A DNA stretch of 64,000 bases from a virus: the IMG/VR virus record IMGVR_UViG_3300030110_004856, positions 17,585 to 81,584 of that record; one strand, written 5' to 3'. Positions 3,136 through 46,090 of the stretch are shown piece after piece (within the stretch, counting starts at the first letter, position 1; each line of letters opens with the position of its first letter). The notes under the pieces are model-generated. The model did not search any database. It was not told the origin of the DNA and saw only the letters and a list, made by a program, of their open reading frames with translations. Both the position numbers and the translations under genes were made by a program.

Positions 3136-4661
3136 CAGTACTCAACGGAGAATTGACCTCGTTTTTGGAGGAAAGTCATTAACCAAACGTAAGCATCCAA
3201 CAAGTCATCGTGGCTAGTTGCACCAATATTGATTAACTGGTCGATAAGCGCCTCAAACTTTCGGTACTTGTTGAAAGTCACCTTTTTGTTCTCCAGAAGA
3301 CCTAAGGTCCCCCGGAACCTAGCAATTTTGTCTCCCCTAAACCCTTTGACTTCGTGGATGTGCAGGTTGTAAAGGCCACGCTCGTTCAAGAGAACTCTTC
3401 GTATATCAGCAGCAAGACTAGCTTGATACGCTACAGCCTCAACGACGAGGGTTACAGTTGAATATGTAGGCATGTACACACCGTCCTGGAGCACCAGGAT
3501 GCCCCACTCCACCAACATGTCGCAGAGAAGATCGATTTTTTCTAAATTTCCAATTGAACGGACCTGATGAGCGTCCACGATGTAGTAGTCATCTTTCAAT
3601 CTTCCCCCTAAAACAAATGCGGTGTAGTCAGACGTTTCGTTTTTACTTGCCGAAAGGTCAATGCCCACAGCCAGAGAATCAAACTCTGTGGCAACTTCTC
3701 CTTTGACAATGAGATCAGGAGACAGCACCAAGTCAGAAGACATCACTGCCTGCTGTTGATACTGGTAAGCAAACGCCACAGGATCTAGTTCTTTCTGTTG
3801 CAGCAGGTATGTTGCCGACCACTGACTAGGCCAGTAACTAACAGGCTCACCATCGTTGTCGTAAGTAATAGCTTCTTGGGAAACCTGCTTCCAACCTTTT
3901 TGTGGGATGAACATAGTTTTATGAATATCCAGCGGATGGAATCGGGTGCCGAGACATATCGACCTGCCACCTTCAAACACAATCGGTGCGATAACACTCG
4001 ACCAGTTATTATTCATCTCCTCCCTAATCGAAGGGTTTTTGATATCAGCGCTGGATTTAATAGGGTCATCCACAATGACAAGGTGAGCACGTTTAGACGT
4101 AATCGACCCTCTCAGCCCCGCAGCACGAAGAGTAAATTCTTCATCACCCACTCGACTGATACCTGCATAGTCAAAATCAATTGACCAGCCCACATCACTC
4201 TGCATACCCTGGCGGAGCTGCACTCGCGGAAAAATTTTTCTGAAGGTCGCTGAGTCAATGATCTGCTTGATAATCCGACTCTTCGGAATAGCAGTATTGA
4301 TGTTGTACGAGCAGTAGATAATCTGAAGCGGTCTTTTCTGTGTGGTGTGGCGTCCAATAACCCACGCGGTAAATAAGTTCAGAACCGTGCTTTTTGCCGA
4401 TCCACGGGGAGCCAAAATATCTAAGTTGGGTCCGGCTATGTCAAGCAGATATTTATTTGATTCACCAGTAACAAGATGTTTATGCCACTCCAGCATATGT
4501 TGTGCTGGTGGTTTATCTAGAACAGTACAGAAGGTAAGGAAATCATCCTGTGCTCTAGCAAATACGTTATCTACACCGAAGTTGTCTTCATCGGCATCCA
4601 CAGCGCGTTGAGCCTTTAGTCGTAAAGCTCTCCGGTACGCAAAAGTTTCTCTACTCGGCAT
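3135..4661 (-). CDS. terL: Terminase large subunit
   Basis: 508 residues from the ATG at 4661. The protein is the DNA-packaging motor: ATP-driven translocation into the prohead plus cleavage of concatemers. A Walker A-like APRGSAKST lies at about residues 84-92, a Walker B LVIVDD at about 194-199, and a nuclease strand AVGIDLSASK with a key Asp near 335. A C-terminal HDDLLDAYVWLM supplies further acidic residues. A longer frame starts at 4757, but the extra 32 codons lie antisense to the conserved N-terminus of the GT4 gene, so I chose 4661. It ends by overlapping the downstream glycosyltransferase start. Confidence 0.93.
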   Translation of the reverse strand: MPSRETFAYRRALRLKAQRAVDADEDNFGVDNVFARAQDDFLTFCTVLDKPPAQHMLEWHKHLVTGESNKYLLDIAGPNLDILAPRGSAKSTVLNLFTAWVIGRHTTQKRPLQIIYCSYNINTAIPKSRIIKQIIDSATFRKIFPRVQLRQGMQSDVGWSIDFDYAGISRVGDEEFTLRAAGLRGSITSKRAHLVIVDDPIKSSADIKNPSIREEMNNNWSSVIAPIVFEGGRSICLGTRFHPLDIHKTMFIPQKGWKQVSQEAITYDNDGEPVSYWPSQWSATYLLQQKELDPVAFAYQYQQQAVMSSDLVLSPDLIVKGEVATEFDSLAVGIDLSASKNETSDYTAFVLGGRLKDDYYIVDAHQVRSIGNLEKIDLLCDMLVEWGILVLQDGVYMPTYSTVTLVVEAVAYQASLAADIRRVLLNERGLYNLHIHEVKGFRGDKIARFRGTLGLLENKKVTFNKYRKFEALIDQLINIGATSHDDLLDAYVWLMTFLQKRGQFSVEY

Positions 4662-26361: not shown

Positions 26362-27555
26362 ATGAACACGCAACTTTTCAAAAAGTTCCAAAACTTCCGC
26401 TCTCAGCTCAACAGCAGATTCCTAGAGCGAGAGACAGTCATCGATGGACTTCTTGCTTCGTTAATCACAAAGCAAAATGCTTTCTTGTTCGGTGTCCCTG
26501 GTACAGGTAAGTCAGAACTCGTCAGAGCAATCAGCAGTGGCTTCAAAGGAACTGAATACTTTGGCTATCTACTGAGCCCTACTACTGATCCGTCAGAGTT
26601 GTTTGGCCCTGTGGCTGTGAGCAAACTCCTGAAGGACGAGTACACAAGAGACACTGAGGGTTACTTGCCTTCAGCGAACATCGCGTTTCTTGATGAGCTG
26701 TTCAGAGGATCATCTGCTGTGCTCAACAGCCTGCTGACAATCCTCAACGAGCGCACATTCAACAACGGCAAAGAGGTTGTTAAGACACCAATCAACAGCA
26801 TCGTTGCAGCTACTAACTCATTCCCAACTGAAGAAAGTCTGCAAGCTTTCCTGGATCGTTTCTTGTTCAGACCTACGGTTGATCTACTTCAGAAACCAGT
26901 CAGCAAAAGGAAGCTAGACATGTGGTCGCTGGGTATTGAACCGCGCCCAGAGATTTTCTCAGCTCTGACTCAGGAAGATCTTGTAGAACTACAGGAACAA
27001 GCAGCCTGCATCAAACCAACATCCAAGTTTGCTGGATTGTTTGGTGATGTCATGGAACGATTAGAGGTCAGTGGCATCTACATCTCTGACCGTCGTCGCG
27101 TACAGATCATTCAGTTCTTGCGTGGTTATGCGGTTGTCAAAGGTGAGAGCGAACTACATCCTCACATCCTGCTAGAGACTCTTCCGCACATCCTTTACCA
27201 AAGCGACGACGACAAAGAGATTATTCGCGAGCAGTTGGATGCAGCCATTGTCACTGGCAGTCGTTTCGTTAAAGAGAATCAGCATGCTGCAAACAGCATC
27301 ATGCATGAGTTCTATAGCTGGGACGCTAAAGCCAGGACGATCAGCGATACGAAAATGCACATGGACGTGGCTCGCAACATGAGCAAGTGTCTGAGTGATC
27401 TGACAACCATTCAAAAACGTCTTACTGAAGCAATGGACGATGACGAACTAAAAATCACTGAAGAAGTGCGACTCAAAATGATGAAGCAACACACTCAGAA
27501 CGACAGCGACATGAAGACCATTGCCAAATCACTGACTCGTTTCACAACTAATTGA
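26362..27555 (+). CDS. MoxR-type AAA+ ATPase
   Basis: 397 residues. Walker A GVPGTGKS (44-51), Walker B IAFLDE (107-112) followed by the MoxR segment LFRGSSAVLNSLLTILNERT, and sensor 1 Asn in IVAATNSFP (near 152) define a MoxR ATPase. MoxR proteins act as hexameric remodelling chaperones, almost always with a VWA partner. The start has no Shine-Dalgarno. It is 1 nt from the VWA gene, so the two are expressed together. Confidence 0.9.
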   Translation: MNTQLFKKFQNFRSQLNSRFLERETVIDGLLASLITKQNAFLFGVPGTGKSELVRAISSGFKGTEYFGYLLSPTTDPSELFGPVAVSKLLKDEYTRDTEGYLPSANIAFLDELFRGSSAVLNSLLTILNERTFNNGKEVVKTPINSIVAATNSFPTEESLQAFLDRFLFRPTVDLLQKPVSKRKLDMWSLGIEPRPEIFSALTQEDLVELQEQAACIKPTSKFAGLFGDVMERLEVSGIYISDRRRVQIIQFLRGYAVVKGESELHPHILLETLPHILYQSDDDKEIIREQLDAAIVTGSRFVKENQHAANSIMHEFYSWDAKARTISDTKMHMDVARNMSKCLSDLTTIQKRLTEAMDDDELKITEEVRLKMMKQHTQNDSDMKTIAKSLTRFTTN

Positions 27556-27556
27556 C

Positions 27557-29101
27557 ATGACTAATTCTTTTAAATCTGAGTTCATTCACCTCAGTGACAA
27601 CGAGCCAATGGTGCTCAAAGTCTCTGCTCTGACTGACTTTCTTTGGTCAGACTACGTAAGGGATTCAGCTCCTCGCGTTAAGTACCTGACTTCTCACTAC
27701 GACATCCGCAAGCTCAGTCGGTTTGGAAAGGAGTTGTTCGAAGCTTTGTACCAAGCAGAAAATCTCAGCCCAGTTATCTCACTGCAAGATGCTGAAGATT
27801 ACTTTCGAGCTACTCAAAACGGAGAAGAACTTGAAGCTCCTGCTAATTACAAACCAGAGAATGCCTTCTGGATTGGTCTCTTGCAGGACGTGATGAACTC
27901 TCCTGGGTGGGGAATGATTGCACCCATTTGCTACGGCAACCAGTTCAACTCTGGCAACAACGCCATCAGTATTCTCAACAAGCTTTCTGAATTGATCGAT
28001 GAGTCAATCAACAACAGAGAGCTAGATCCCACAGCGTTGGGTGAAGCAGTAGATGAACTCAACGAATTGCGTAGACAGTTCGTGGAGGCGAAGAAGCAAG
28101 GAGACTTCCAGAAAGCGAAGGAACTCAGAGAGAAAGGCAAACAACTCGGTAAGAATATCGAGGAGTACCACAATAAGATGAGAGAGCAGATGCGTCCTGA
28201 GATTCAGGAAGCTGTCGACAAGGCTGCAGATGAAGCTCAACAAATCAACAAGGCGATGAGCCAGCTAGCTGGCGATCAAGCAGGGAACCACCAGCGTCAG
28301 AGTGTCGAGGAGAAGCAGCAACTCGCGAATCGTTTACGCAACAACAAAAAGCTTCTCGCCCTTGCCAATCGCCTTGGTGCCCTTCGTCGTACATGGAACC
28401 AGCGCAAGCGAGCAAGGAAAGGTAAAGCTAACTATTCGGACATCGTTGGAGTGAAGTTCGCTGACTCAGTGCCTCAAGCATTCCCTACCGAACTAGCACT
28501 GGCTGCCACGCCTGAGGGGAGGGCACTCTTTGCGATGAAGTACAACCAAAAGACAATCCTTTGCAAAGACTACGAAGCTCAAGTCAAGAACCTGGACAAG
28601 GGACCGATCATGATGTTCGTCGACATCTCTGGTTCGATGCAGGGTGATTCGGAGCTTTGGAGCAAAGCCATGGCTCTTGTCGTTGCAGAGGAAGCAGTCA
28701 AACAGAAACGTCCAGTACACCTCGCTCTCTTTGACACACGCATAAAGAAGCACTTCATCTTTGATCCAGCATCGACAGACAAGGACAACCTCCTTAACTT
28801 CTGTCTCTCCTGGTCATGTGACGGAGGAACCTCATTTAGCTCTGTGTTGAGTTACGCGATGGAAAACTTGGACCACTCTTCACGCGCTGACATCCTGCTA
28901 ATCACAGACGGTCACGACAATGTGAGCGAAGACTTACTGCAAGATTTTCACGAATGGAAGCAACTGTCAGGTGTGGAAATGAATTGTTTTTGTATCGGAG
29001 ATATGAGTATCAACTTACGATTGTTTGCAGACGATATCCGGGAAGTCGATGTCCACAACGATGCCGAGTCGTCTGATCTATTCCAAGACGTTCTTCTGTA
29101 A
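27557..29101 (+). CDS. VWA-domain protein, partner of the MoxR ATPase
   Basis: 514 residues. The C-terminal VWA domain has the metal-ion site DISGS (D356, S358, S360), a Thr-containing DGGTSFSSV and ITDGHDN with the later Asp. Residues about 140-290 form a long coiled-coil and basic segment (RKRARKGKANYSD). This resembles the CobT, CoxE and ViaA group of ATPase partners that recruit the substrate. The ATG is 1 nt after the MoxR stop and the stop is immediately followed by the next ATG. Confidence 0.88.
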   Translation: MTNSFKSEFIHLSDNEPMVLKVSALTDFLWSDYVRDSAPRVKYLTSHYDIRKLSRFGKELFEALYQAENLSPVISLQDAEDYFRATQNGEELEAPANYKPENAFWIGLLQDVMNSPGWGMIAPICYGNQFNSGNNAISILNKLSELIDESINNRELDPTALGEAVDELNELRRQFVEAKKQGDFQKAKELREKGKQLGKNIEEYHNKMREQMRPEIQEAVDKAADEAQQINKAMSQLAGDQAGNHQRQSVEEKQQLANRLRNNKKLLALANRLGALRRTWNQRKRARKGKANYSDIVGVKFADSVPQAFPTELALAATPEGRALFAMKYNQKTILCKDYEAQVKNLDKGPIMMFVDISGSMQGDSELWSKAMALVVAEEAVKQKRPVHLALFDTRIKKHFIFDPASTDKDNLLNFCLSWSCDGGTSFSSVLSYAMENLDHSSRADILLITDGHDNVSEDLLQDFHEWKQLSGVEMNCFCIGDMSINLRLFADDIREVDVHNDAESSDLFQDVLL

Positions 29102-29589: not shown

Positions 29590-30372
29590 ATGCAGATCCT
29601 TTACAAGCTAGGGAGTCTCGACCTAGACAAGCATGAAGTGAAGACTCTTTTGTCTCACGCAACAGATGAGATCTCAATCACAGTTGATCTCAAAAAGCAT
29701 CTCCGAGGACTGGACTCCAAAGCTCTCTTCGCTGAGGCAGTAGAAGCAAAGGACACTCGTCTAGCCACGCTGGCAGCCAAGCTGGCAATGGAAGGTGGCC
29801 GGAAGTTCAACCCTGCTAGGAAACGTAGTTATAGGAAGACGGGTGAAAAATCTGTCCTTCACGCCAAGATCATTGACCAGGACCCTTTTGAGTCACTGGA
29901 GGAGATTCTGAGCAAAAACTCTCTGAAGAACGTTGGTGCTGCAATGATCCTCAACTCTCTGGAGGATGGAGACCGTCGATCACTTCGCGAGATTGCAGAA
30001 GATGTCGTCAACCATATGGAGAAGTTCAGTCACAACTCACCTGATGATTCTCCTCGTCTCTTCCGTGGTTTCGAGAAGACGCGCCATGGGTTCATCGCTC
30101 TCATGAAGCCACAAAAGAAAGGTCAGTGCCAGTACCACCACGCTCCTGTCTACACCGCACTGCGTGACGGTCTCAAATACTTGGCCACTGTTGGTTTGGT
30201 AGACATCAAGAGCGAGAAGACATACGGTGCTCTAGACAAGAAGAAGAACAATAACGCAGGCCATCTCCATCGCAATGTGTATACCATCGCGCTTAGCAAA
30301 GGTGGTATGACTCTGATGCGTAACTGGAACGACAGTGACGATTACATCAGCGGCTTCTGGAAACAGCGGTAG
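29590..30372 (+). CDS. Unknown basic protein (260 aa)
   Basis: 260 residues. A Lys/Arg-rich patch near residues 73-90 (GRKFNPARKRSYRKTGEKS) and a helical middle precede a C-terminal part with YTALRDGLKYLATVGLVDIK, which resembles a winged-helix wing. This suggests nucleic-acid binding. It ends just before a terminator at 30394. No family is recognised. Confidence 0.6.
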   Translation: MQILYKLGSLDLDKHEVKTLLSHATDEISITVDLKKHLRGLDSKALFAEAVEAKDTRLATLAAKLAMEGGRKFNPARKRSYRKTGEKSVLHAKIIDQDPFESLEEILSKNSLKNVGAAMILNSLEDGDRRSLREIAEDVVNHMEKFSHNSPDDSPRLFRGFEKTRHGFIALMKPQKKGQCQYHHAPVYTALRDGLKYLATVGLVDIKSEKTYGALDKKKNNNAGHLHRNVYTIALSKGGMTLMRNWNDSDDYISGFWKQR

Positions 30373-30393
30373 ACTGAAAGCGGAGTATGCTTC

Positions 30394-30424
30394 GAGCGGT
30401 TCTGGAGGGGGCCGCTCTTTTTTT
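30394..30424 (+). terminator. Rho-independent terminator
   Basis: GAGCGG (30394-30399) pairs with CCGCTC (30412-30417) around a 12-nt loop, followed by seven T (30418-30424). It ends the operon that includes the gene at 29590; the next ATG follows immediately at 30425. Confidence 0.75.
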
Positions 30425-30946
30425 ATGGCAAAGCATCTACCTATTCCCACTGACATCGGTGACTACCTGGAGGTCGATCGCAGCATCCCTTCTGGTCTGC
30501 GGTGGAAAGTCTCACGAGGAAGGGTAAGAGCAGGACAACCGGCTTGCTTCCTTTACTATTGGAAACCTGTTTTATATGCGGTCAGGTTCAGAAAAAAGAC
30601 ATATCTTTCTCATCGAGTAATTTTCTTTCTTGAGACTGGGCAAGACCCAGGAGACCTAGAAATAGACCATCAGAACCACGGCGATAACAGGGATGAATTA
30701 CGCCTAGTCACTAGGCGTCAGAACAGTATGAACATCCGCATACCAAAAAGAAACCAGTCAGGTTTCAAAGGAGTGTCTTGGGCAAGAAAAGAATCAAAGT
30801 GGAGAGCCCGGATCGTCGTTAGCTACAGGAAGAAACATCTGGGTTATTTCGACAGTCGCCTCGATGCCGCGTGGGCGTACAACCAAGCAGCTATTGAATA
30901 CTACGGCGAGTTCGCTAAGCTCAACGTGCTACTAGTCCAGCTCTGA
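30425..30946 (+). CDS. HNH-AP2 homing-type endonuclease
   Basis: 173 residues from the ATG at 30425. YLSHRVIFFLETGQDPGDLE, then IDHQNHGDNRDELRLVT, is an HNH (H-x-N-H) fold. The C-terminal SGFKGVSWARKESKWRARIV, followed by KKHLGYFDSRLDAAWAYNQA, is an AP2 DNA-binding domain. This is a known free-standing endonuclease type in phages. It begins right after a terminator, with no strong promoter visible, as expected for an inserted gene. It sits just before the DNA polymerase gene, a typical site. Confidence 0.85.
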   Translation: MAKHLPIPTDIGDYLEVDRSIPSGLRWKVSRGRVRAGQPACFLYYWKPVLYAVRFRKKTYLSHRVIFFLETGQDPGDLEIDHQNHGDNRDELRLVTRRQNSMNIRIPKRNQSGFKGVSWARKESKWRARIVVSYRKKHLGYFDSRLDAAWAYNQAAIEYYGEFAKLNVLLVQL

Positions 30947-36357: not shown

Positions 36358-37179
36358 ATGCCGTACATCGCTGGAAAATTCGACGCTGACGAAATCCTTT
36401 GTCAAGTACCGCCCCACACCTTACGAGTCGATCTTCAGGCTCGTCGTTGGAAATCCGATAACGATCCTGACCAGGCCATCATCGACTCGAACGATAATGG
36501 TATCCCGATTGAGTTCATCCTTCTCGGGTTTACTCCGTTCTTTGGGAACCTGGGGATGCGTTCTCACGAGGAGTTCATTCGTATTGCTTACATTGGTGTT
36601 AGCCCTACCCATCGCTTGCTCCCTAAGCGTTGTGTATCTACTAGCATCATTAGTGGTAAGTCTTCTCAGAAGAACTTTATCTCTTATTTCCACACGCTCT
36701 ACAACAACAGGATCAACGTCGCGGAAGTAGTTACTTCTACTAGGTTCTTGCAAAAGAGCTTTAACGAGACCGATCCCACCACGGGTGAAGACAAAGGTAA
36801 GATCAACTACAACGTGTTGGAGTTCAAAGATCGCCCTGTCTCCGGTAAAGAAGAAGAGCAACTTGTCAAAGACATTGAGAAGTGGCTCGAAGGCGATGGT
36901 GGAAACTTGGTGGGAGCTGCACTTAAGAGTAATATCTCCGGCAGCAATCTCATTGAGCTTCCTATTGGAGCAGACATCGCTGCGCTTAAGGAAGCTTTCA
37001 TCGAAGCAAACCCGAAGCGTGTAGATGGAATGCAGATGGGCGGTCTGACTTCCTTGCCTGCTGGAGCTGGTGTAGCCGGTAAAGCACTGAACCCAGTGCC
37101 TGAGGCTAAGGTCGAGAAACCTAAAGAACTTACGGAAGAACAGAAAGCAGCGATCAAAGCTGCTGGTTTGGAGGTATGA
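36358..37179 (+). CDS. Unknown protein next to the SSB (273 aa)
   Basis: 273 residues. The N-terminal two-thirds is mixed alpha/beta with VDLQARRWKSDNDPDQAIID and conserved-looking aromatics (FILLGFTPFFGNLGM, FISYFHTLYNN). The last third has an acidic Lys/Glu/Pro linker and a final helix with EEQKAAIKAAGLEV. It lies 36 nt after the SSB with an A/C-rich leader (CTACAACCAACTC). A role in replication or recombination is inferred from position; no family is recognised. Confidence 0.6.
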   Translation: MPYIAGKFDADEILCQVPPHTLRVDLQARRWKSDNDPDQAIIDSNDNGIPIEFILLGFTPFFGNLGMRSHEEFIRIAYIGVSPTHRLLPKRCVSTSIISGKSSQKNFISYFHTLYNNRINVAEVVTSTRFLQKSFNETDPTTGEDKGKINYNVLEFKDRPVSGKEEEQLVKDIEKWLEGDGGNLVGAALKSNISGSNLIELPIGADIAALKEAFIEANPKRVDGMQMGGLTSLPAGAGVAGKALNPVPEAKVEKPKELTEEQKAAIKAAGLEV

Positions 37180-37263
37180 TTCGCAAGCGCCAGGGGTTTC
37201 ATGAACGGCCCCATTCAACACCCTTCCTCTAAGGATGGCGCTGTAAAAAGTAGAGGATGAACT

Positions 37264-37296
37264 AAGGCTCTGTTTAGTTGACGCAGAGCCTTTTTT
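37264..37296. terminator. Rho-independent terminator at the end of the SSB operon
   Basis: AAGGCTCTG (37264-37272) pairs with CAGAGCCTT (37284-37292), nine pairs, with an 11-nt loop and a run of T to 37296. It ends the rightward transcript. The A-run on the left also allows it to work leftward behind the NblA-like gene. Confidence 0.8.
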
Positions 37297-37541
37297 CATG
37301 TCTCGCGTTTTTCGAAGAGCGACGACATGGGAGGCAGGTCATAACCACGGGAGATGCAGTAAGCCACGAGCTTTTTAAACATCTCAGTTTTCACTAGGTA
37401 GTTTGTATGTACAATTCCAAGTATCTCCGTCAACTCCTTCTTGTCGAGACTCTTACAGCTGTGTAATACCCTACGGTGATGGAATTCCTGCTCCATTGTT
37501 AAGTAACCTTGAATCCTTCCGAGTATTTCGTTTTCGTTCAT
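37296..37541 (-). CDS. nblA: NblA-like phycobilisome degradation protein
   Basis: 81 residues on the minus strand. The segment LTMEQEFHHRRVL starting at residue 14, followed by KKELTEIL (34-41) and LVKTEMFKKLVAY (49-61), follows the NblA pattern (L-S/T-x-E-Q-x-F, then helix with EAQE-like spacing, then VK-x-x-x-FK-x-L) without gaps. NblA binds phycobilisome subunits and adapts them to the Clp protease, releasing amino acids from the antenna. It lies alone between convergent and divergent rightward genes, bounded by a terminator, so it has its own control. A 13-residue N-terminal extension is present. Confidence 0.75.
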   Translation of the reverse strand: MNENEILGRIQGYLTMEQEFHHRRVLHSCKSLDKKELTEILGIVHTNYLVKTEMFKKLVAYCISRGYDLPPMSSLFEKRET

Positions 37542-38064
37542 GTTTTACAAGATCCCTGAATTAGTTTTCTCTCCTCTAGCTGCCAAGAACATTGTCCTTG
37601 GCCGAGTGCTGGTGATCAACGACCAGGAGCAGCTACTAGAGAAGCAGGTAAGCAGAGAAGGTTGCGAAGTTTACTCCTGCACATTAGACGATTTGGCAGA
37701 TAGCGATAGCTGGAAAACCCTACCTAGAATCGACTGGATGATTTGTGTGACACAAGGGCTAGGTAAAAAAGCAGAGTGGGTAATGGATGCAGCCATGAGT
37801 ATGCCCGAAAAAGGCTTCTGTTTACTAGATCGCATCAGCTTTCTTGAGCCCACACGCTCGCGAGAGGTGTTACTAAAGTCTCATTCCCTAAGAAATTTGA
37901 TTGTTCTTTCGCCACGTCCTGCGTTCCGTGCTGATAACAAACAAGCAAAAGACTCAGTGACATCAGCGTGGTTTGTATTCTCCACTGACTCAACGCACAA
38001 AAAGAACACAGAAATAGATTTTGCACTAAACTGGCAGCGACCTCAGGCTGTATGTAGTGGCTAG
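37540..38064 (+). CDS. Unknown protein, degenerate DNA methyltransferase-like
   Basis: 174 residues. The C-terminal half has LLDRISFLEPTRSREVLLKS, then LVLSPRPAFRADNK and DSVTSAWFVFS, which resemble the later motifs of a phage methyltransferase family; the SAM and catalytic motifs are not clear. Its start codon overlaps that of the NblA-like gene in a shared CATG. No Shine-Dalgarno is seen, so a later start cannot be excluded. Role uncertain. Confidence 0.5.
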   Translation: MFYKIPELVFSPLAAKNIVLGRVLVINDQEQLLEKQVSREGCEVYSCTLDDLADSDSWKTLPRIDWMICVTQGLGKKAEWVMDAAMSMPEKGFCLLDRISFLEPTRSREVLLKSHSLRNLIVLSPRPAFRADNKQAKDSVTSAWFVFSTDSTHKKNTEIDFALNWQRPQAVCSG

Positions 38065-38365
38065 TGATATCAAAGAGCTTTTATCTAAACTCATCGACAT
38101 ACAAATCGAGCAAAGCAGCAAACTCGACAAAATTGCTGCACTTCTTTTAAGCGATCAGCTACTAACTGAGTGCATTGATCAAAACGGTAAAGGTAGAGAC
38201 GCAGATACTGCAGGAGAAATAGTTGCTGAGTCTTTCTCCGCAGGACTCTGTCTGCTAGGTGAGCTAGAAAACAGAAACAAGCAGTATCTTTACCAAATGC
38301 AGGAATTTTTTCTGGACAACGACAGCAGTTCAGTAGGCAACGACGACCTAGCTAATCCTTTCTGA
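38057..38365 (+). CDS. Unknown helical protein (102 aa)
   Basis: 102 residues from GTG at 38057, overlapping the previous stop by 8 nt. The N-terminus (DIKELLSKLIDIQIEQSSKL) is a leucine-rich coiled coil; the C-terminus is acidic (DNDSSSVGNDDLANPF). No family is recognised. It precedes the nuclease gene by 8 nt. Confidence 0.5.
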   Translation: MASDIKELLSKLIDIQIEQSSKLDKIAALLLSDQLLTECIDQNGKGRDADTAGEIVAESFSAGLCLLGELENRNKQYLYQMQEFFLDNDSSSVGNDDLANPF

Positions 38366-44854: not shown

Positions 44855-46090
44855 CTAGGGGTGTTCTGCCACAATGCCCCATCCGTCATGGGCAGATGAA
44901 ATAGTCCATCTCTTTCCGAGTTTTTCTTTGTTGTACAGCTGGTTGGCACCATTCGCAGAAAGGTAAACCCCTGTGTCCAGATCGAGGGATCCGAATGGGT
45001 CGTGGCAGATAATATTCTTTCCGTCCGGGCTAATTCCTTTTGCAAGGATCCAGTGCCCTCCTCCACTGGGGGAATCCAACAAGCCTCTATGCAGAATCCC
45101 AAGGGGGCAAGGAATAGAGTTGCGCAGCAAGTTCTCGACATCCTCCCAACCCATGTCCTGCCTGAACTCGGCTTCAACTCCATAAGAAGAGAGTGCTTTA
45201 ACTTGCACCCACGCTTCTGTAGTGTCTCCAATCGAGAAAACAGTTTTGATGTAATCATCGTCATTACTAATTATTCCTGGTTTTAAGTAGTTCAATAACA
45301 TCGCACAAGAAGAAGAATAACAGGTGCGATCAGAGTCCCTGTAATTATCTCGCTGTGAATAGTATTTAACATCCAGATCTATACCAGATCCCTTGTTCTG
45401 TGTGACTGCACCGGGTGGAACATCATTAATTACCTTCCAATGTTCGCCCCAGATATACCAATTCTTTTGGTCAGCAGTTAGACGCACTCGTTGGTGAGTT
45501 TTACCAGCAAACATCGTCAACTCATTCCACTCCCACGCAGATCCTTTAGGTACGAAGACTTTCTCTTCGGGCAGCAAAGAGGAAGAGTCAGCCATTCTCT
45601 TCTTTAGATACGTATCTTGCTTGGCATAAATGGACTGCCCCAACTTCGGATGTTTAATCTTTTCAAGAAAAAGATCTTTCTCAGCTTGACGACGTGTCAC
45701 TAAACCAGGGAGTGGTTGCCCGTCGGCTCCCTTCACCCATCGACCGAACTGCTCAGCAACTACTTTCTTATCCTGCCCTTCGTTCAACAAACGACGAAGA
45801 GTGGAGTCTTTATATGCACCACAGCCTACGTTAAAAGCAAAGGATACGAGTGCATCAAACTCGTTTTGATTAACTTTTACGTTTGTGTATGTCGAAACAC
45901 ATTGCTCAAAACTTTCTACATCGTGCTTAAGGAACTCATCTGCTTGCTCCTCAGTAATAGTCATCCCTAGTTTGACACCATGAGTATGCCCATACCCCAC
46001 AGTGGCGACTGAACTGGGGCACATATAGCTCTCAAGTCTTAACCCTTCAAACTTCTTAATTACGGCTAGTCCGTTGTCAGAGATTTTCAC
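44855..46090 (-). CDS. Endolysin: GH24 lysozyme domain plus C39-like peptidase domain
   Basis: 411 residues. Residues 1-150 are a T4-type GH24 lysozyme with catalytic E15, C24 and T30 spaced E-x8-C-x5-T (EGLRLESYMCPSSVAT). Residues about 235-411 resemble C39/papain-like peptidases: C257 or C262 in DRTCYSSSCAM, H346 in SGGGHWIL and D364 in CHDPFGS. The linker has an SH3-like part (VFVPKGSAWEWNE). GH24 cuts glycan strands; the peptidase would cut cross-bridges. There is no signal peptide, so export needs a holin; the membrane-protein gene just upstream fits. Confidence 0.88.
   Translation of the reverse strand: MKISDNGLAVIKKFEGLRLESYMCPSSVATVGYGHTHGVKLGMTITEEQADEFLKHDVESFEQCVSTYTNVKVNQNEFDALVSFAFNVGCGAYKDSTLRRLLNEGQDKKVVAEQFGRWVKGADGQPLPGLVTRRQAEKDLFLEKIKHPKLGQSIYAKQDTYLKKRMADSSSLLPEEKVFVPKGSAWEWNELTMFAGKTHQRVRLTADQKNWYIWGEHWKVINDVPPGAVTQNKGSGIDLDVKYYSQRDNYRDSDRTCYSSSCAMLLNYLKPGIISNDDDYIKTVFSIGDTTEAWVQVKALSSYGVEAEFRQDMGWEDVENLLRNSIPCPLGILHRGLLDSPSGGGHWILAKGISPDGKNIICHDPFGSLDLDTGVYLSANGANQLYNKEKLGKRWTISSAHDGWGIVAEHP

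Follow-up and report, generated by a model that had tools for sequence, protein, structure and literature searches.

The window analysed here is a stretch of 64,000 nucleotides comprising bases 17585-81584 of the 81,584-base (81.6-kb) IMG/VR virus record IMGVR_UViG_3300030110_004856. A small minus-strand gene, here called gene A, lies between two plus-strand genes in the window, and a second candidate of the same kind, gene B, lies elsewhere in the record:

36358-37179, plus strand: convergent neighbour of gene A, 273 aa; without a PHROG match, and with a best Pfam E of 0.21, which is not convincing.
37264-37296, plus strand: intrinsic terminator of the 36358-37179 gene, with a 10-bp stem, a 9-nt loop and T6; the T run extends into the gene A stop codon.
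37296-37541, minus strand: gene A, NblA-like, 81 aa, with the NblA core spanning residues 14-59 and a phage-specific tail that has an invariant P70.
37539-37542: CATG common to two predicted divergent start codons, that of gene A on the minus strand and that of the 174-aa gene on the plus strand.
37540-38064, plus strand: divergent neighbour of gene A, 174 aa; residues 78-158 match PHROG 799 'DNA methyltransferase' (E 2.9e-7), with no Pfam match.
L002:1426-1665, same record, outside the window: gene B, NblA-like, 79 aa, GTG start.

A preliminary description of this DNA had placed an 81-residue reading frame at 37296-37541, alone on the opposite strand behind a strong terminator. The coordinates, strand and length are correct, the flanking genes at 36358-37179 and 37540-38064 are both on the plus strand, and the terminator is indeed strong, with six T following the 10-bp stem (-20.1 kcal/mol, z -5.2). 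The hairpin faces the convergent 273-aa gene and ends at the gene A stop codon. It was not listed by the automatic terminator scan, probably because its 9-nt loop exceeds the limit of 8 set in that scan. Inspection of the last 75 bases at 18 chosen loci, 17 of them in addition to that of the window, showed a hairpin with a T run behind it in 14; in the other four (L206, L209, L239 and L279) the genes are 213-653 bases apart. The terminator serves the facing 273-aa gene and would protect gene A against convergent transcription, and separate expression timing of gene A is possible.

Relatives of gene A were collected by scanning IMG/VR with a profile, A2, built from an alignment of ten gene A family sequences including that of the window. 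At least 104 encoded relatives were found, and the best 80 of the 104 were kept; the 80 loci examined are 79 of these (the truncated L237 was left out) together with L286. The gene slot is conserved and adjoins replication genes, with gene A antiparallel to the homologues of both the 174-aa and the 273-aa gene in all 80 loci. In 72 of the 80, a single CATG holds the overlapping predicted starts of gene A and the 174-aa gene, a count that leans towards overlap, since the in-frame ATG nearest gene A was taken as the start. For the remaining eight loci, no ATG was found for the 174-aa neighbour in five, and the gap is 89-104 bases in three. If the predicted starts hold, the promoter and leader of each gene would lie inside the other gene. 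A scan of positions 37000-38200 for consensus promoters found two, against a chance mean of 1.2, and thus no excess. The 174-aa gene matches only columns 297-375 of the 458-column DNA methyltransferase PHROG, and may be a methyltransferase remnant or a repurposed domain.

Evidence that gene A belongs with NblA came from several comparisons. The Pfam NblA model, PF04485, matches the protein at 29.7 bits (E 9e-7), above the gathering cut-off of 25, with residues 14-59 aligned to model positions 2-47; this is the HMM check that the preliminary description had proposed. When A2 was compared with an NblA alignment (A4), residues 13-61 of gene A paired with residues 6-54 of Anabaena NblA, with a score of 33.5 (P 4e-6) and 16% identity over 49 columns. 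Neither alignment contains a gap, as had been claimed from inspection of the sequence. Among 200 column-shuffled NblA profiles, none exceeded the true score, the maximum being 18.7. Similarly, the gene A protein scored 14.5 bits against an HMM of nine NblA sequences, a value reached by none of 20,000 shuffled proteins (best 12.6). These comparisons make chance an unlikely cause of the resemblance. Other matches of gene A were weak, namely RepB_C (0.058) and PHROG 11187 'transcriptional regulator' (0.091).

The reading frame also evolves as a gene would. Between gene A and its relative L006, identity is 47% at third codon positions, 80% at first and 90% at second; dN is 0.19 and dS 1.88, giving a dN/dS of ~0.1, and in another two pairs dS was saturated. 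Gene A looks to be under purifying selection, judging from these substitution patterns. A chance reading frame with a spurious Pfam match was considered and is ruled out by the protein shuffles, the column shuffles and the codon divergence. That the frame is a mere antisense open frame is scarcely credible: its predicted start overlaps that of the opposite-strand gene and promoter matches did not exceed the chance level, but the 80 loci encode 46 distinct proteins of 77-82 residues, and third-position divergence with dN well below dS already contradicts this reading.

NblA is reported to tie ClpC to phycobiliproteins, and its structures are reported to be helix-loop-helix dimers (PMC4103541, PMC7966870, PMC7760959); an N-terminal motif is reported to bind ClpC and a C-terminal motif to bind phycobiliproteins (PMC4103541). 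The N-terminal L-x-x-E-Q-x-F motif of the ClpC-binding region is present in gene A as LTMEQEF at residues 14-20, and its E-[QS]-x-F part is retained in the family. The preliminary description had called the residues before this stretch a 13-residue N-terminal extension. This was overstated, because Anabaena NblA has 6 residues and S. elongatus NblA 9 before the same Leu, sequences that the analysis largely confirmed; a real excess of 4 to 7 residues stands. That description did not mention that the C-terminal tail is conserved and bears an L-P motif.

Across the 46 distinct gene A proteins, F20, H22, H45, F55, L58 and P70 are invariant, while E17 is kept in 45, Q18 in 39 and Y48 in 41. Leu51 and Lys53 of Anabaena NblA are its C-terminal phycobilisome-binding residues. 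Leu58 of gene A occupies the Leu51 position, and the Lys53 position, which is Ala60 in the window protein, is basic (R or K) in 31 of the 46 and Ala in three, including the window. This pattern of conservation indicates that the two halves of gene A differ, the N-terminal motif being NblA-like and the second helix and tail carrying a phage signature. An AlphaFold model of gene A is a helix-loop-helix with helices at 16-30 and 34-64, at low confidence (pLDDT 67.6, pTM 0.34). Foldseek and VIA-align searches with this low-confidence model returned no NblA, and a sequence search of the PDB with the gene A protein gave nothing relevant.

The PF04485 score falls quickly within the gene A lineage. 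Six of the ten A2 members match the model at E<=0.01. When eight IMG/VR records with a gene A relative were searched, six matched at E<=10, and three, near-identical to the window, were over the cut-off. At E<=1 the model gave no report of gene A in G013, G014, G018, G022 and G023, each of which has gene A in its slot. The NCBIfam equivalog model for NblA, NF045916 (cut-off 100 bits), gave no match to the window protein at E<=1, and of the five proteins on which it was tried, one gene A relative scored 11.8 bits. Gene A is therefore filed as a divergent PF04485 homologue and not as an NblA equivalog.

A reciprocal search used the A2 profile against 386 genomes of the cyanobacterial phylum and gave seven matches at E<=0.001. 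Four of the seven places (G148, G164, G190 and G213) are also PF04485 matches, and the other three are NblA-like by eye. PF04485 itself matches 128 of the same 386 genomes, 125 of them over its cut-off; with 128 genomes against seven, A2 reaches a small part of NblA. At one place in the cyanobacterial phylum (L318 1492-1671, in G232), the second helix resembles, by eye, the phage gene A motif more closely than canonical NblA does. A family of 191 genomes, that of genome G380, had been entertained as picocyanobacteria on account of its small genomes and was rejected, as phycobilisome proteins (PF00502) were found in 0 of the 191, so the family does not bear phycobilisomes. Its weak matches (four with A2; eight in another search, none over the cut-off) consequently mark the background level of the search and are uninformative about Synechococcus. 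The forward, reciprocal and profile-based searches together back the earlier identification of gene A as an NblA homologue, and the sequence comparisons support its classification as a divergent one.

The same record carries gene B, where PF04485 also matches record bases 3322-3459, beyond the window, with a score of 17.5 bits that falls short of the cut-off. IMG/VR contains 31 relatives of gene B, 51-95% identical to it, and the motifs EDEF and C-[RK]-E-R are kept in all 31 (22 distinct proteins). In a profile comparison with NblA it gave a P of 6e-5, and one of 200 shuffled profiles, a single outlier, outscored it. Among 18 members of the family searched against Pfam, PF04485 was matched in five at E<=0.1 and Imm51 in four at similar E. 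PF04485 matched at E<=1 in eight of the 21 gene B records searched (of 31), matches outside gene B being counted and none being over the cut-off. The AlphaFold model of gene B has helices at 12-25 and 30-58 (pLDDT 71.7), and Foldseek found no NblA with it. When gene B and Anabaena NblA were each used in tblastn against 50,697 phage records, each gave one chance-level match. By these measures the link of gene B to NblA is weaker than that of gene A. A Dps/ferritin-like gene lies near gene B on the plus strand, outside the window (record C1:4195-4731, equivalent to L002:2374-2910), and has a homologue in Synechococcus phage S-EIV1 at 47%.

Genes A and B occur together in all seven records longer than 60 kb that carry the gene B family (the window's record and six others). 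The 273-aa neighbour of gene A was found in nine of 30 gene B records (L046 left out) and was absent from 21, the records being mostly fragments; those of 58.0 and 51.7 kb without this neighbour may lack gene A. Baier et al. 2014 reportedly described an essential NblA1/NblA2 heterodimer in Synechocystis, and by analogy A and B may pair. A bolder and rather doubtful proposal is that A and B form an obligate heterodimer like NblA1/NblA2, that their changed C-terminal halves are retargeted to another set of phycobiliproteins, such as the phycoerythrin-rich antennae of Synechococcus, and that transcription of gene A excludes that of the divergent gene.

Of 267 mechanically listed ORFs in the record (>=60 aa, shadow frames included), 28 have an S-EIV1 match at E<=1e-5, including the terminase at 52% and a 371-aa ORF at 68%. 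S-EIV1 also heads the phage matches listed for the primase, at 29.6% over 46% of the protein. These similarities support the view that the virus is a cyanophage related, distantly, to S-EIV1. The recorded host of S-EIV1 is a Synechococcus, and the presence of its homologues here thus supports a cyanobacterial host; that the host bears phycobilisomes would follow from the NblA likeness itself. Neither megablast with a 15-kb part of the window nor tblastn with the gene A protein gave a match in 50,697 phage records. A simple motif scan of the record found no high-light-inducible protein, and no photosystem protein was among the Pfam families listed for 38 scanned ORFs. Elsewhere in the window, a MoxR-type AAA ATPase gene (26362-27555, plus strand; PF20030 bpMoxR, E 1.3e-55) adjoins a gene for a vWA-domain protein (27557-29101, plus strand), a chaperone-like pair in a phage. 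An HNH endonuclease gene with a weak AP2-like DNA-binding match below the cut-off (30335-30946, plus strand) stands directly before the DNA polymerase gene, and at 44855-46090 on the minus strand a phage lysozyme is fused to a C39-like cysteine peptidase domain.

We infer that gene A probably encodes an NblA-type proteolysis adaptor for ClpC, by which this distant relative of S-EIV1 would have the phycobilisomes of its host degraded. In such a mechanism, A, alone or with B, would form a helix-loop-helix dimer whose C-terminal half binds phycobiliproteins and whose N-terminal motif binds host ClpC. ClpCP would then degrade the host phycobilisome, and the breakdown would free amino acids for phage synthesis and reduce light absorption during infection.

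An alternative is that A descends from NblA and has been repurposed by the phage, either as an adaptor that brings a different target to ClpC or as an inhibitor occupying ClpC. This model draws on the phage signature of the C-terminal half (H45 and P70 in 46 of 46, Y48 in 41), where Anabaena NblA differs, and on the loss of the Lys53 position in the window protein. While these features are consistent with a change of target, the Leu51 equivalent is invariant in all 46 proteins, the Lys53 equivalent is basic in 31, and the reciprocal search lands on NblA genes; we regard repurposing as unlikely. Much less probable is a convergent resemblance, with A a small two-helix phage protein unrelated to NblA. 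The protein is short and helical, Foldseek returned no NblA, the weak matches to RepB_C (0.058) and PHROG 11187 (0.091) point elsewhere, and PF04485 misses gene A in several relatives. Convergence must be set against a score that passes the curated PF04485 cut-off and is never reached by shuffles, a reciprocal profile search that lands on NblA, and the cyanophage context.

If the proposed function holds, at least some members of a phage lineage that has over 100 records in the catalogue carry two antenna-degradation genes. This strategy would differ from that of psbA and hli, the photosystem-supporting genes usual in marine cyanophages, and the lineage would allow heterodimer action and the phycobiliprotein targets of phage NblA to be tested.

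S-EIV1 (KJ410740) is one of the closest phage comparisons. It has homologues of the terminase, primase, DNA-binding ferritin-like protein, thymidylate synthase and glycosyltransferase, and, beside its lysozyme gene, a B-like ORF (73941-74081) that scores 17.4 bits against PF04485, below the cut-off; the hypothetical protein AHV82245.1 (KJ410740.1 73902-74222) is, on sequence, a possible unrecognised gene B homologue. In contrast to the window, S-EIV1 showed no counterpart of the 273-aa neighbour at E<=0.001, and PF04485 at E<=10 did not detect gene A in it; the same kind of search overlooks gene A in some relatives as well. For the S-EIV1 group, hli and ptoX, and no nblA, are given in a survey of ocean virus genomes (PMC5332604).

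Gene A shares with cyanobacterial NblA (PF04485; 1OJH, 2Q8V, 2QDO, 3CS5) an ungapped core, E-Q-x-F and the C-terminal Leu, with a helix-loop-helix predicted at low confidence, and differs in its 4 to 7 extra N-terminal residues, the conserved L-P tail and the invariant His in helix 2. The NblA proteins of the freshwater cyanophages Ma-LMM01 and PaV-LD are phage-borne like gene A, and that of PaV-LD has the same LTMEQEF stretch; their PF04485 scores (52 and 45.4 bits, respectively, from one match per record at E<=1) are far above that of gene A. Ma-LMM01 nblA is reported to be expressed while host phycobilisomes degrade, and PaV-LD NblA to be active (PMC5780444, PMC4103541, PMC9602691). Expression of certain freshwater phage NblAs, and of one NblA from marine viral metagenomes, is reported to cause phycobilin loss, and genes from marine viral metagenomes are reported to be active in S. 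elongatus (PMC9602691). The putative NblAs of marine cyanophages (Nadel et al. 2019; S-SCSM1, S-TIM5 and cyanopodoviruses) are also phage NblA-like, and the set of Nadel et al. may include the lineage of the window; PF04485 at E<=1 found no match in the records of S-TIM5, S-SCSM1 or P-SSP7, a cyanopodovirus chosen for this comparison. Two NblA genes in one phage are not described in the titles and abstract openings of the literature searched, a search that did not cover Nadel et al. 2019. Phage NblA is already known; what would be new here is the paralogue pair and the fixed gene slot.
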